Made by a program: the position numbers and the translations under genes
Shown here: in pieces, positions 32,475 to 59,438 of the stretch
Layout: the number at the start of each line of letters is the position of its first letter
Position numbering within the stretch: position 1 is the first letter of the stretch
Notes under the pieces: generated by a model
Databases searched by the model: none
What the model saw: the letters and a program-made list of their open reading frames with translations, nothing else
What the model was told of the DNA's origin: nothing
Assembly (NCBI RefSeq): GCF_003386535.1
Contig: NZ_QTTN01000002.1
Span: 124,001 to 188,000, forward strand
Origin: Paenibacillus taihuensis
Lineage (GTDB): Bacteria > Bacillota > Bacilli > Paenibacillales > Paenibacillaceae
DNA length: 64,000 bases
Direction: 5' to 3'

Positions 32475-35400
32475 TTAAAACAATTTTATCGCACGTCCCC
32501 CATCGAAGAAGAACACGTAACATTCGTTGATTTTTCGGCCAATGACCGACTCTATCGCTTCCGCGTAAAGCGTCAGCTGGAACCGGTGGCGCTCAGCCGC
32601 CTGCTCCCACTGCTTCATCTGAATCCGGTCTGTTTTATAGTCAAGCAGCACGAGCCCTTGCTCATCTTCGAATAAACAGTCGATGACCCCTTGGATAAGA
32701 ATCGGCTCTTCCTCCAGCGATTTCTCCGAACCCGGGTAAACACGCGAAGCCGGGAAAGTCACGCTGAACGGCGTCTCGCGCCGCACCCACTTCGCTTCCA
32801 TCAACCGTTTGCCAACCCCGCTCTCGAAAAATGCCGCCGAGCCCGCGATATCAACCGCATCGGCTTGCTGCTTAGACAGCATGGTCTGCTCTCGCAAACG
32901 CTGGACGGCTTGACGAACCGTTTCTTCAGACACCTCGCCTGTCAGCGGGATATGCTGCATGACCAAGTGGCTCACGGTTCCCCGCTCCGCCGCAGTGAGC
33001 GAAGCCTCTTCCATGAACTTCGGACGACGCAGACGGAACGTATACTCGCCACCGCCTCTAGGCGCAGTCGCTTCAAACTTTCTCTCGGCCGCGGCTGAAG
33101 GCTTCTCCTCATGAACAAGGCTTGCTGCCTCCTCATCGAAGAAGAGCTCTACCTGCCCTGCCTGCCCTACTTCTTCGTGCGGCGCCATTTCCAGCTCTAA
33201 ACCCTCGTCCGGCTCTATCGCTCCTCCGGCATCCGCCAAGCTCGCCGCCTCAGCAATCTCAGGCAGCAACAGCGCAGCTTCATCCTCGCCGATCTCGGCA
33301 TGCAGCCGTTTCATCTCGGTTACGGACGTTTTGGCCGCCGTCGTCGTCGCTGCCGCGTACGGATAACGCCAGCTAAGCCGCCGATCTATCTCGATAGCCG
33401 CTTCTTCTGAGGCAGGCAGCGGAACGAGTGATTGAACAGCCTGCATCCGCTCTGCAAAAGCAATCATCGCTTCGCTATCCTCCGCGGCAGCCGCAGCTGC
33501 TTCAAGCCCCAGCACAGACGCTGGAACGACTGCCGTTTTCCAATCCTTGAACGCACGAAGACGGCTAAGTTCATCCATAACTTCCGGCGGCTGCACCGTC
33601 TCTGCCGCTTCTTCCACCACATTCTCCGGTGCTTCAAGAGCTAATTCCTCATCGACTTGCTCCACCACAATCGGAATGCCTGCCTCCATAGCCAGCGGTC
33701 CGAGCCAATCAATAAACTTGGACGCGCCCGCAATGCGGAAGTCAGGCAGCTGACCGTCGCGGTCAACTGCAGACGCCCATCGCTGAAGCTGCTTCTCGGC
33801 ATCGGCAACCGTGCCGACAAGGAACATTTTCTCCTTCGGTCTCGTGAGCGCCACGTACAGAATCCGCATCTCCTCCGCGAGCGTCTCCATGCCAAGCCGC
33901 TGGCGAATCGCCAAATGCGGCAGCGTCGGATAGCTTACGCGAAGCTCCGTATCGACATAGCGCGGCCCAAAGCCGAGCTGCTTGTGCATCAAGAATGGAC
34001 TCGTCAGATCGCGTTTGTTAAACTGCTTGCCAAGCCCCGCCGCGAACACGACTGGGAACTCAAGCCCCTTACTCTTATGAATGGACATGATGCGAACGAC
34101 ATCTTCCTGCTCGCCCAGCGCTCTCGCTGTTCCGAGGTCGCCGCCGCTCTCCCGCATTCGATCGATAAAACGAAGGAAACGGAACAAGCCGCGCAGCGTC
34201 GTCGCCTCGTATTGGCGGGTACGGTCATGCAGCGCGCGCAAGTTCGCTTGCCGCTGCAGGCCGCCTGTCATGCCGCCGACGAGATCGTAATAGCCGGTTT
34301 CCCGGTAAATGCGCCATAGCAAATCGGCGAGCGAGCCTTGCCGCGCTTCTTCCCGCCACGCTTCAAGCGCAGTGAGGAAATGAATGAGCTTGCGTTGTGT
34401 CGCTTCCGGGAACGAAGGATCATCCGCTGCGAGACGAACTGCCTCGTAATAGGCGATTCGACCGCCTGCGATCCGGATGAGCGCAAGCTCTTCGCCTGTT
34501 AATCCGACGAGCGGTGAACGAAGCGTCCCCGCAAGCGGAATATCTTGATACGGGTTGTCGATGACGCGCAGCAGCGACAGCATCGTCTCTACTTCCGTCG
34601 CTTCGAAGTAACCGCTGCTCAGCTCCGCATAGGCTGGAATGCCATGCTGCTGAAGCTCCTCGATAATCGTTGGCGCCCACTGCTTGTCAGCCCGCAGGAG
34701 GATGACGATATCGCGCCATGCGAGCGGACGCTTCCGCCCTTTTTTGCCATCGTAAACTTGGAATGGCTCTTCGATTGCAGCGCCTTCGGCAGTCTGCAAG
34801 CCTTTCAATCGAAGAATCTGGCTAGCGATCCAGCGCGCCTCAAGCTGCACCGTCTGCAAATCTTCAGCCGGTTCCGCTCCGCCTTCAACTTCGCCTTCAC
34901 TATCGCTGTTCTCTTCCGATTCATCGACCGCACTGCCTGCGCCTTTGCCTTTATCAAGAACCGCGAACTCTACCGCATAGCGCTCAGGTGCTCCGCCGTC
35001 GCTAGCAGACGGATATGACGCGCCGCATACAAGCTCGGCCCGTTCGTCATAATCCATCTCCGCTGCCTTCTCGCGCATAATGGCCCGGAACACATTGTTG
35101 ACGCCGTCGACCACCTCTTGGCGGCTGCGGAAATTACGTGCCAGATCGATACGAACGCCATACTCTTGATCAGTGTCGGCACTTTTCTCGCTATCCTCGT
35201 TGACATCCGCTTTCCGCATGTCATCGGAAGTCAAATAAGTTTTATATTTACGCAGGAACAAGCCCGGCTCCGCCAAACGGAACCTATAGATGCTCTGCTT
35301 CACGTCGCCGACCATGAACCGATTGCCTTTGCCAGACCGCGAGATCAAGGAGACGATCGCTTCCTGCACCATGTTCGTATCCTGGTACTCATCTAGCAGC

Positions 35401-56174: not shown

Positions 56175-57332
56175 TTATTCGCCGATGAAAGCGCCGAAAA
56201 CTTCGTTCCCCAGCGGAATGCCCTTCTCAGACAATCGGTAGCCTCCGCCCCGCTCCTCCGTATGCTCCAGCAGCCCTTGTGCGAGAACCGCTTCGAGCTG
56301 CTCGCCGAACTCGCTCTCGATCGTCAGACCGGGGAACTGCCGCGCGAAATCGTCATTGTTGACGCCTTCCAGCATCCGCAGGCCGACCATCATGAAGTCT
56401 TCCATCGCTTCGCGCTCAGGCACCGGATTCGTCTCCAGACGAGGCAGCCTATTTAATGAAGCATCGATGAATGGCTGGATGCCCTTAATGTTAATATGGC
56501 GCTCGCCTTTGGCGTAGCCGTGCGCACCCGCACCGAGTCCGTAGTACGGCTCGTTGCGCCAGTACGTGATGTTATGCTTGCTCTCGAAGCCGGGCTTGGC
56601 AAAATTGCTGATCTCATAATGCTGGAAGCCTGCTCCCTTGAGCGTAGCAATCAGATGCATATACATCGCAAGCTCATCATCTTCTGATGGAAGAGGCAGC
56701 TCGTTACGCTCATAGAGCTTATGGAACAATGTGTTCTCTTCGACCTTCAAGCCGTAAAGCGAGTAATGCGGCAATTTCAGCGCAAGCGCGCGAGCAACGC
56801 TGTCCGACAGCTGCTCAACCGTTTGGCCTGGAAGACCGAACATGAGGTCGATCGACAGGTTGTTGAAGCCAGCCATTCTCGCATTCTCGATGCTGCGATA
56901 CACGTCATCCACATTGTGAATGCGTCCGATTCGCTCCAGCAGTCCATTATCGAAGGATTGCACGCCCATGCTGATCCGGTTCACACCGCCAGCTTTCATG
57001 GCATGCAGCTTATCGATATCGACCGTGCCCGGGTTCGCTTCCATCGAAAACTCCGCATCAGGATGAATCGGGAAGTACTTCTTCACCGACGCGAGGAACC
57101 GCTCCATCTGAGGCGGTGTCAATACAGTCGGTGTCCCTCCGCCGACAAACACCGTACGAATCTCTTCAGGAGGCAGCAGTTGGGCCGTCATTGCCATCTC
57201 CCGCTCCAAAGCATCCAGATACTCATCGACCGGCTGCCCCTTCAGCACGTACGAAGTGAAATCACAATAATGGCACTTGTTCGTACAAAAAGGGATATGA
57301 ATATAAAGCGCCCGAGGCGCATGCGTAAGCAT
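56175..57332 (-). CDS. hemW: Radical SAM heme chaperone HemW
   Basis: HemW (formerly coproporphyrinogen dehydrogenase-like HemN homologue) carries heme to respiratory enzymes. 385 residues with the radical-SAM motif CTNKCHYCDF at residues 16-25 and GGGTPT at 65-70. It lacks the extra N-terminal features of true HemN. GGAGGG lies 12 bases before ATG 57332. It follows lepA in the conserved order, with a terminator and a structured element in between. Confidence 0.95.
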   Translation of the reverse strand: MLTHAPRALYIHIPFCTNKCHYCDFTSYVLKGQPVDEYLDALEREMAMTAQLLPPEEIRTVFVGGGTPTVLTPPQMERFLASVKKYFPIHPDAEFSMEANPGTVDIDKLHAMKAGGVNRISMGVQSFDNGLLERIGRIHNVDDVYRSIENARMAGFNNLSIDLMFGLPGQTVEQLSDSVARALALKLPHYSLYGLKVEENTLFHKLYERNELPLPSEDDELAMYMHLIATLKGAGFQHYEISNFAKPGFESKHNITYWRNEPYYGLGAGAHGYAKGERHINIKGIQPFIDASLNRLPRLETNPVPEREAMEDFMMVGLRMLEGVNNDDFARQFPGLTIESEFGEQLEAVLAQGLLEHTEERGGGYRLSEKGIPLGNEVFGAFIGE

Positions 57333-57371: not shown

Positions 57372-57400
57372 AAAAACAAGGGAGCTCTTATGCTCCCTTT
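57372..57400 (-). terminator. Terminator after lepA
   Basis: AAGGGAGC-ataaga-GCTCCCTT followed by GTTTTTATTT on the minus strand. It ends the lepA-structured-element transcript and separates hemW. Confidence 0.88.
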
Positions 57401-57407
57401 AAAATGC

Positions 57408-57615
57408 TTGTGAAGAGTTGGCCGGAGGCCAGTGATGGAATGGAGCAACGATAGTGGTCGCCTAGGCGAAATGATTTGCGTGGTCTTACCACGCTAAATC
57501 ATTTGCGCCTTTGTAATCTGATTCCAACATATAAATGTCTTATATGATCCAAAAGGAATCAGAATTACAACAGCGAGCGGAATCCATCACTGGCAGCAGG
57601 CCTTCCCCTTCACAA
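57408..57615. other. 208-bp multi-stem element downstream of lepA (structured RNA or MITE-like)
   Basis: The ends pair: TTGTGAAG (57408) with CTTCACAA (57608-57615), GGCC with GGCC, and GCCAGTGATGGA (57428-57439) with TCCATCACTGGC (57583-57594). Inside are two long hairpins: 57465-57509 (GGCG-AAATGATTT-GCGTGGT arms, about 20 bp with two single-base bulges) and 57511-57570 (TTGTAAT-CTGATTCC arms, 15 bp with one bulge, plus an inner CATATA/TATATG). No ORF of note. It begins five bases after the lepA stop and ends just before the terminator, so it is likely transcribed with lepA. Confidence 0.75.
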
Positions 57616-57620
57616 CTCAA

Positions 57621-59438
57621 CTAGTCTTCGTCAATCTTCAACACAGCCATAAATGCTTCCTGCGGAACCTCTACGCTGCCCACCTGTTTCATGCGTTTCT
57701 TGCCTTCCTTCTGCTTATCAAGCAGCTTCCGTTTACGGCTGATGTCACCGCCGTAACACTTGGCAAGAACGTTCTTCCGCATCGCCTTAACCGTCTCACG
57801 CGCGATGACTTTGTTGCCGATTGACGCTTGTACAGGCACCTCGAACATTTGACGTGGGATAAGCTCCTTGAGCTTCTCGCAAATGATCCGGCCGCGGTTG
57901 TACGCACGATCGCGGTGAACGATAACGGACAGCGCATCGACCATCTCGTTGTTGAGCATGATGTCCATCTTCACGAGCTTCGATTGGCGGTAGCCGGATA
58001 GCTCGTAGTCGAACGATGCGTAGCCCTTCGTGCTCGATTTCAGTTGATCGAAGAAGTCGTAGACGATCTCGGACAACGGGATATCGTACGTCAGCGTTAC
58101 GCGGTTCGTGTCCAGATACTCCATGTTTACGAATTCGCCGCGTTTGCCTTGGCAAAGCTCCATAATCGCGCCGACGAAATCGTTCGGAACGATAACCGCC
58201 GCTTTCACATATGGCTCTTCCACGTATTCGATCTTGCCGACTTCCGGATAGTTCGACGGGTTGTCGATCTCCAGCACTTCGCCATTGGTTAACGTAACGC
58301 GATAGACTACGCTTGGCGCCGTGGTGATAAGCGGAATGTTGAATTCACGCTCGATCCGTTCTTGAATAATTTCCATATGCAGGAGGCCAAGGAATCCGCA
58401 GCGGTAGCCGAAGCCAAGCGCTGTCGAGGATTCAGCCTCGTAACGAAGCGATGCATCATTAAGCTCAAGCTTCTCGAGCGCATCGCGAAGGTCGTTGTAA
58501 TCTTGCGTTTCAATCGGATACAGACCGCAGAATACCATCGGGTTAATCTTACGGTAGCCCGGCAGCGCTTCAACTGCAGGCTTCTTCGCATCGGTAATCG
58601 TATCACCGACACGCGTATCCTTCACGTTCTTGATGCCCGCAACGACGAAACCTACGTCGCCGACAGCCAGTTCGCCTACAATCCCCATGCGCGGCATGAA
58701 CGCGCCGACTTCGATAACCTCGAACTCTGCGCCTGTCGCCATGAAGCGGATTTTCTTGCCTGCTTTGATGCTGCCGTCCATGACACGCACGTACACGATA
58801 ACGCCCTTGTACGGGTCGTAGTGCGAGTCGAAGATAAGTGCTTTCAGAGGCTCGTCCGGATCGCCGGTAGGCGCCGGCACTCTCGTAACGACCTGCTCCA
58901 AAATCTCTTTAATACCGATGCCGGCCTTCGCCGACGCCAGTACCGCGTCACTTGCATCCAGACCGATAACATCCTCGATTTCCTGCTTCACACGTTCAGG
59001 CTCTGCGCTCGGCAGATCGATTTTGTTAAGCACCGGGATAATCTCCAGGTTGTTGTCTAGTGCGAGATACACGTTCGCGAGGGTCTGTGCTTCAATCCCT
59101 TGCGCTGCGTCAACAACGAGAAGCGCGCCCTCGCATGCCGCAAGGCTTCGCGAAACTTCGTATGTGAAGTCGACGTGTCCCGGCGTATCGATCAAATTAA
59201 GGATATATTCTTCGCCGTCATCGGCTTTATAACCCAGTCGTACAGCTTGCAGCTTTATCGTAATGCCGCGTTCGCGCTCGAGATCCATTTGGTCGAGCAC
59301 CTGCTCCTGCATTTCACGCGAGGAGAGCGCGCCGGTAAATTCAAGAATCCGGTCTGCCAGTGTTGATTTCCCATGATCAATATGGGCGATAATTGAAAAG
59401 TTTCTAATTCTCTTTTGCCGTTCACGTACGTCCGACAT
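57621..59438 (-). CDS. lepA: Elongation factor 4 (LepA)
   Basis: Translational GTPase that helps ribosome biogenesis and back-translocation. 605 residues: G1 [11 protein letters not shown]3 DTPGH, G4 NKID, then EF-G-like domains and the LepA-specific C-terminus ([19 protein letters not shown]). GGGGG lies ahead of ATG 59438. Same position as in B. subtilis, after yqxA and before hemW. Confidence 0.98.

Follow-up and report, generated by a model that had tools for sequence, protein, structure and literature searches.

What occupies the gap between lepA and hemW in the Paenibacillus taihuensis genome, where a stretch of about 208 bp folds on paper into several long helices? The locus lies in the window, by which we mean the whole 64,000-nucleotide stretch of DNA that was analysed. 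The preliminary description of this DNA had seen long nested helices filling the gap and had proposed a new structured non-coding RNA, an mRNA-tail element or a folded MITE with terminal inverted repeats (TIRs). We found the fold at window positions 57408-57615 on both strands, with a stability far beyond that of shuffled DNA. The minimum free energy (MFE) was -93.0 kcal/mol on the plus strand (z -9.4) and -98.2 kcal/mol on the minus strand (z -10.2), and in neither case was any of 200 dinucleotide shuffles as stable, which bears out the nested helices that had been claimed.

The flanking genes were confirmed by NCBIfam equivalogs as lepA (57621-59438, minus strand) and hemW (56175-57332, minus strand). 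In agreement with the limits first given, from five bases after lepA to just before its terminator, the element starts 5 bases past the lepA stop and ends 8 bases ahead of the lepA terminator stem. The architecture originally drawn, a closing stem of 8, 4 and 12 bp around hairpins of about 20 and 15+6 bp, also held and was refined. In the minus-strand model the closing stem has 9+4+12 bp and one single pair, and it encloses a 15-bp hairpin with an apical 7-bp stem, a bulged 21-bp hairpin and a small third hairpin, for which the MFE drawing differs from the family model. The covariance model built from the family matched the window copy at 57606-57407 (minus strand) with 85.5 bits; a second match in the window, at 34083-34169 (plus strand), reached 10.2 bits (E 1.5) and was taken as chance. 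The features of the locus, in window coordinates, are as follows.

57408..57615, minus strand: whole element copy, from the fold and the covariance-model match; the lepA-sense strand has the conserved ...TCGCTGTT...AAAGGCG... core
57606..57614, minus strand: outermost closing stem, 5' arm, partner 57409-57417, from the fold
57409..57417, minus strand: outermost closing stem, 3' arm, from the fold
57583..57594, minus strand: perfect 12-bp closing stem, 5' arm, partner 57428-57439; the corresponding helix covaries
57428..57439, minus strand: perfect 12-bp closing stem, 3' arm, from the fold
57579..57581, minus strand: UNC half of the conserved UNC/UNC internal loop, partner 57442-57444
57442..57444, minus strand: second UNC half of the internal loop, from conservation in 85 copies
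57511..57570, minus strand: hairpin 1 (core hairpin), covarying stem TTGTAATTCTGATTCC / GGAATCAGATTACAA
57465..57509, minus strand: hairpin 2, GGCGCAAATGATTT...AAATCATTTCGCC, an optional module flanked by repeated GGCG and absent from many copies
57448..57455, minus strand: small hairpin 3 of the family model (RC-UNNC-GY), in which the R-Y pair covaries
57378..57399, minus strand: lepA intrinsic terminator, outside the element, present after the element and in empty gaps

Neither the window nor 20 loci that contain other copies gave an Rfam match at gathering score; six matches around the element, seen when E was allowed to rise to 10, all scored far below it. This agrees with the earlier failure to place the fold in a known riboswitch class.

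A DNA search of the genome itself returned nine further places (E < 0.03). When oriented, these copies have short motifs in common (around CGCTGTTG and CAAAGGCG), and their arms vary from copy to copy yet remain complementary. With the covariance model R1, the same genome gave at least 23 full-length matches at E < 1e-7 among the 150 of 1583 candidates that were scored. Hairpin 2, the longest hairpin of the window copy, was absent from five of the first ten own-genome copies examined and from 10 of 12 copies at the lepA site, being present there in G000 and, in altered form, in G014; the hairpin of about 20 bp described as part of the element is therefore real at 57465-57509 but optional. Hairpin 3 is the spot where other copies have accessory hairpins inserted.

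Within the genus, 21 of 22 genomes, the own one included, were positive with R1 at E 1e-6, with 7 to at least 140 matches each; 140 candidates were scored per genome, and all 140 of G012 passed. The sole negative was G021, with no match at this threshold among its 140 candidates. In the order, sampled with 20 candidates scored per genome, 114 of 149 genomes and 25 of 39 genera were positive, again counting the own genome, and in the class 18 of 200 genomes; the own family accounts for 17 of these, and the remaining one, G378, lies outside the order. A pattern search of named genomes gave at least 109 stretches, and the 80 matches listed comprised 77 from Paenibacillus, two from 'Bacillus sp. 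FJAT-27264' and one from a Chitinophagaceae MAG; the last (L109) was dropped as a chance match, since the rest of the element is absent there. By blastn, no plasmid record matched the window copy and no phage record matched one other copy, L140; in predicted-virus contigs, 1 and 12 stretches were matched. In one genome, the first 0.8 Mb alone contained 26 copies. Many scattered copies, which had been named together with target duplications as the sign of a MITE, were thus found across Paenibacillus genomes, and the single-locus RNA is refuted by their dispersal.

Several side observations were made during these surveys. G378, of family f53, had four matches (best E 2e-8), for which transfer, contamination or chance are possible. 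Tandem arrays with near-constant spacings of 151 bp, about 211 bp and 256 bp were seen at L082:3196-3712, L030:877-1790 and L398:8031-8687, respectively. The copies at L398:8031-8687 and L391:3658-4131 are GC-rich, with 59-66% G+C against 40-49% in the other complete copies listed, and core pairs are altered in the L398 ones (CCGCTGTTGG...CCAAAGGCGG). A second, short palindromic repeat of about 50-60 bp, around GATTGGTTTGCGTTC...GAATGCAGCATTC, occurs alone and in tandem: four units lie in L114:2459-2700 (plus strand), it is also found at L417:39-140 (plus strand), and two units occupy the lepA-hemW gap of G020, where the large element is absent. This repeat, or a similar hairpin, is also found inside hairpin 3 of large elements (L027, L102, L103, L405).

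Comparison of orthologous sites revealed a discrete unit of about 190 bp with terminal inverted repeats, present or absent with clean junctions. The 102.5-kb site of G055 was filled in five congeners (G055, G063, G077, G193, G174) and empty in 13 that could be aligned (75 searched), as well as in the more distant G052 and G067; where the unit is missing, the site consists of a small hairpin with a T after it. At the 43.5-kb site, G055, G193 and G052 have the unit; it is absent from G067 and from G172, whose flanks are 96-98% identical to those of G055. A 189-bp unit at the 504-kb site of G193 was absent from five aligned congeners with recognisable flanks, the other congeners having either the unit or unmatched sequence, and related units elsewhere in G193 were 90-99% identical among those listed. 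At 511 kb of G193 (L384:11294-11483), a complete copy is nested in the hairpin-1 loop of an older copy, which is uninterrupted in eight aligned congeners. At the 371-kb site, the copies have opposite orientations in two pairs of genomes, for which we suggest in-place inversion or repeated insertion at one spot:

L366:11203-11383, plus strand: copy at the 371-kb site
L336:9434-9614, plus strand: copy at the 371-kb site
L357:15745-15889, minus strand: copy at the 371-kb site
L376:1719-1902, minus strand: copy at the 371-kb site

The g17 subfamily ends in CTATATAAATTGAACTAAA or a near-identical sequence. In G193, the TIR ATAAATTGAACTAAA (at most one mismatch) occurred 52 times forward and 45 times in reverse, 97 in all, versus 0/1 for the reversed control, and many of these matches were paired about 185 bp apart. 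In the 18 TIR pairs that were read, several of them orthologous, no direct repeat was found beyond the TA/TATA of the TIR itself. We read the 243-kb junction as consistent with a duplicated TA, a reading that is also possible at 102.5 kb; the junctions of site A and of the 43.5-kb site do not fit it. The feature therefore belongs to a repeat family whose members come and go as units at orthologous intergenic sites, end in inverted repeats and include some young copies. Of the folded MITE originally proposed, the scattered copies, the TIRs and the filled and empty sites stood; the usual form of target duplication did not, because nothing beyond possibly TA was found in the sites read.

We also analyzed whether the pairing is kept as the sequence changes. 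The first alignment (A3) contained 84 copies and was made with MAFFT without reference to structure. Its copies descend from 131 pattern hits with enough flank, of which 95 had a standard hairpin 3 and no insert, reduced to 87 and then to 84 on dropping L077, L116 and L142 (damaged arms); as a result of this selection, A3 holds neither hairpin-2 copies nor the window copy. Standard pairs made up 92.3% of 3066 cells, in comparison with 74.2% in shuffled alignments and 33-47% with a slid partner, and double-change cells numbered 586 versus 178 when shuffled, a value that none of 500 shuffles reached. The number of pairs with a double change, 26 versus 24.1 shuffled, was in weak excess, 47 of the 500 shuffles reaching 26, and ten inner pairs were invariant because the search pattern had required them. 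A second set (A4) comprised 85 copies found by the covariance model, drawn from 80 chosen loci and including 16 of the 23 own-genome copies, with most hairpin-2 copies, the window copy among them, left out. Here, 94.2% of cells were paired and 645 had double changes versus 179 when shuffled, in an alignment that was fitted to the model and leans towards it. Five of the ten inner pairs invariant in A3 varied in A4, with compensation. All these covariation counts pool related, non-independent genomes.

Among these changing stems, certain unpaired or mismatched letters were kept. At the junction, A4 had U38 and G102 in 85/85 copies and G39 and A101 in 84/85, which form a U.G wobble and a G-A mismatch; the constancy of these letters may be overstated, since the pattern from which the model was derived contained them. 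The symmetric internal loop U-N-C / U-N-C, which reads G-N-A / G-N-A on the opposite strand, lay outside the search pattern, and its U was kept in 85/85 and its C in 83/85 copies on both sides. The kept mismatches and loops sit among Watson-Crick pairs that change freely. In this family, it is the fold, rather than the sequence of the arms, that is conserved.

The lepA-hemW gap was compared across 21 genomes, the own one and 20 congeners, without G016. The element was found between lepA and its terminator in 12 of these 21 genomes and was missing in nine; the G002 copy has lost part of hairpin 1, and that of G006 has diverged. In an alignment of the 10 of 12 copies above threshold (A6, model-fitted like A4), 96.7% of cells were paired and 17 of 37 pairs had double changes, in comparison with 8.1 in shuffles; further pair types showed no excess (24 versus 25.1 shuffled, reached by 418 of 500 shuffles). 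The letters of the outer arms vary between genomes while their complementarity stays: arms of the same genome fitted each other with a mean of -47.8 kcal/mol versus -38.3 kcal/mol for arms of other genomes, and the own partner was the best in 7 of 12 genomes. The double changes and the arm fit indicate that the insertion is old at this site and that its pairing has been kept, and this retention suggests that the host derives some use from the element or that copies convert one another. The covariation named beforehand as the sign of an RNA was therefore strong in A3, in A4 and at the lepA site, although a plain MITE would not need it; by itself, such covariation is no proof of a host-encoded functional RNA.

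Based on the premise that an RNA working on the lepA-sense strand should have common G-U pairs and rare A-C pairs, we counted both types. The stems of 42 tRNAs had 53 G-U versus 8 A-C (a rougher earlier count of 24 and 6 is superseded), whereas the lepA-sense strand of A4 had 32 G-U, without the invariant one, versus 69 A-C (Fisher p 2e-12 against tRNA), and that of A3 had 61 versus 98. A first count on two class alignments, again without the invariant pair, had given 73 G-U versus 43 A-C on this strand, less one-sided than tRNA and opposite in direction to the two later counts; 16 of its G-U cells lie at a bulge and are regarded as an artefact of the alignment. Among the own-genus copies of A4 the two types were even, 20 to 18, and 18 of the 69 cells in A4 came from one column. 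When the opposite strand was read instead, the count was 51 to 12 for copies outside the own genus, no different from tRNA (p 0.47), while all 85 copies gave 69 to 32, which differs from tRNA (p 0.008). The opposite strand also folded better in 58/85 copies of A4 and 62/84 of A3. A working molecule from the opposite strand, either RNA or single-stranded DNA, or palindromes kept in the DNA of both strands would account for these data better than a function in the lepA 3' UTR.

The gene context was examined in contiguous regions of three g17 genomes and in a wider sample. In the g17 regions, 82-83% of which were called coding by crude ORF calls, 40/40 copies lay outside ORFs of at least 150 aa. 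In gaps between tandem genes, 23 copies were opposite to both genes and 4 in the same sense (p 3e-4; some are orthologues), so that one strand would be preferentially co-transcribed in these regions. In the wider sample, 34 copies were opposite to both genes versus 26 in the same sense (p 0.37), which gives no strand preference; 32 of 139 copies were inside crude ORFs of at least 80 aa, and convergent gaps exceeded divergent ones, 26 to 12 (p 0.03). A constant orientation to the neighbouring gene was not found, the wider sample being even and the g17 regions biased. Regarding the mRNA-tail element initially considered, its place between the lepA stop and the terminator stood, together with its probable transcription; the reading as such is weakened because all orientations occur and because the opposite strand folds better in most copies and comes out ahead in two of the three mismatch counts.

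A mobilising enzyme was sought among two transposase families, Y1_Tnp (HUH) and DDE_3 (IS630-type), and none was found; the absence therefore refers to these two families. Of the 22 genomes of the own genus, one has Y1_Tnp and 21 have the element. DDE_3 was present in 9 of 40 genomes, namely 7 of 30 element carriers and 2 of 10 genomes without an element match; it was found neither in G000 nor in the six g17 genomes G193, G055, G172, G058, G067 and G052. An IS630-derived MITE was accordingly set aside, with DDE_3 in just 7 of 30 carriers. The only large TIR pair read, 1.7 kb apart, was rejected as an autonomous partner, because it encloses just one 398-aa host ORF, which we take to be a CobW-like GTPase.

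The window feature is best explained as one member of an interspersed family of non-coding, MITE-like elements, about 150-210 bp long and widespread in Paenibacillus and its relatives. Taken as a whole, we consider it likely that this is a mobile family served in trans by an enzyme that reads the fold, and that the lepA copy was inherited. One strand would fold into the closed-stem junction when single-stranded, during replication or transcription; an enzyme supplied in trans would read the conserved internal loops and junction mismatches, and would insert the element into intergenic DNA, in some cases within another hairpin, duplicating no target sequence except possibly TA. It is from the covariation and the kept mismatches that we infer recognition of the folded strand. 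The window copy would have been placed between lepA and the terminator before part of the genus diverged and inherited since; given this position, the lepA mRNA probably carries it as a passive tail. A bolder version, which we put forward only tentatively, is an order-wide mobile class recognised by the three-dimensional fold of one strand and moved by a kind of enzyme new to MITEs and REPs; the features read would be the GNA/GNA loops and the U.G/G-A junction on freely changing stems, and the mover would possibly be a host protein or an RNA-copying enzyme.

The most conventional alternative is a MITE known to a DDE-type transposase by its terminal repeats only, with the fold and covariation arising from palindrome correction by template switching between the arms. 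The perfect TIRs with TATA ends, the usual size of about 185-190 bp in g17, the almost purely Watson-Crick pairs and the 243-kb and, as it can be read, the 102.5-kb junction speak for it. However, correction of the arms should also erase the UNC/UNC loops and the U.G and G-A mismatches that are retained, the core is conserved throughout the order, TIR letters vary between lineages, and IS630-type DDE_3, the only DDE type searched, is absent from six g17 genomes, four of which (G193, G055, G172, G058) have copies of the young subfamily; we regard this alternative as rather unlikely. We hold as less probable still that the element is a cis-acting RNA used by the host (a 3' UTR stabiliser, attenuator or protein-binding site), dispersed as a repeat and now maintained because of what it does as RNA. 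Its case consists of the 12 of 21 genomes in which the element, with double changes, separates the lepA stop from the terminator, the intergenic location of the 40 g17 copies, their 23-to-4 orientation bias (orthologues included) and the G-U excess of the first mismatch count; against it stand the lack of strand preference in the wider sample, the 9 of 21 genomes without the element at lepA and the excess of A-C over G-U on the lepA-sense strand in two counts, the reverse of tRNA.

Two further explanations have very little probability. In a REP/BIME-type repeat moved by a REP-associated tyrosine (Y1) transposase (RAYT), a single-stranded hairpin substrate, the lack of a clear target duplication and insertion near hairpins would all fit, but the distribution of Y1_Tnp relative to that of the element contradicts it within the own genus. 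A single-locus small RNA or riboswitch, hardly credible at this point, would account for a stable fold within a probable transcript, but it is contradicted by a multi-copy family dispersed in all orientations in the own genome and genus, in addition to the negative Rfam result in the window and 20 loci.

In the literature searched, which consisted of titles and the starts of abstracts and covered few subscription papers, no such Paenibacillus repeat was described, and this is hence a large repeat family for which that search gave no description. It fills gaps between genes that might otherwise be mistaken for regulatory sequence, and it offers a natural series of substrates, divergent in sequence and alike in fold, for finding a transposition enzyme that reads structure.

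Several known systems can be compared with this family. The BOX elements of Streptococcus pneumoniae are modular stem-loop repeats with optional internal modules, and the lepA element likewise has modular stem-loops and an optional internal module, a likeness by description and not by sequence. RUP and NEMIS use IS630-type enzymes; in contrast, the lepA-element family lacks an IS630-type partner in most carriers, and its arms and TIRs diverge between lineages while remaining paired, with the inner junction and hairpin conserved. It resembles NEMIS and RUP in being non-coding, TIR-bearing and adjacent to coding sequences, these MITEs being described in an excerpt of PMC3733652 as non-coding, with TIRs of 15-30 bp, located beside coding sequences and transcribed. 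The same paper presents REP/BIME repeats with their RAYT transposases as palindromic, extragenic and of high copy number (PMC3733652), all of which holds for the lepA-element family; unlike REPs, of 20-40 bp, the element measures about 150-210 bp, and 21 of 22 genomes of the genus have no Y1 transposase. A similar setting is that of bcr1-bcr18, dispersed intergenic repeats of the Bacillus cereus group, of which, according to part of PMC3446304, bcr1-3 are MITE-like, bcr10 and bcr18 are structured, and about half are found in transcripts. Our family shares with them the character of dispersed intergenic repeats of Bacilli that are MITE-like or conserved in secondary structure; going by these partial descriptions and not by sequence, the two are set apart by their hosts, the B. 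cereus group for the bcr repeats and 114 of 149 genomes of the order for the family of the lepA element.
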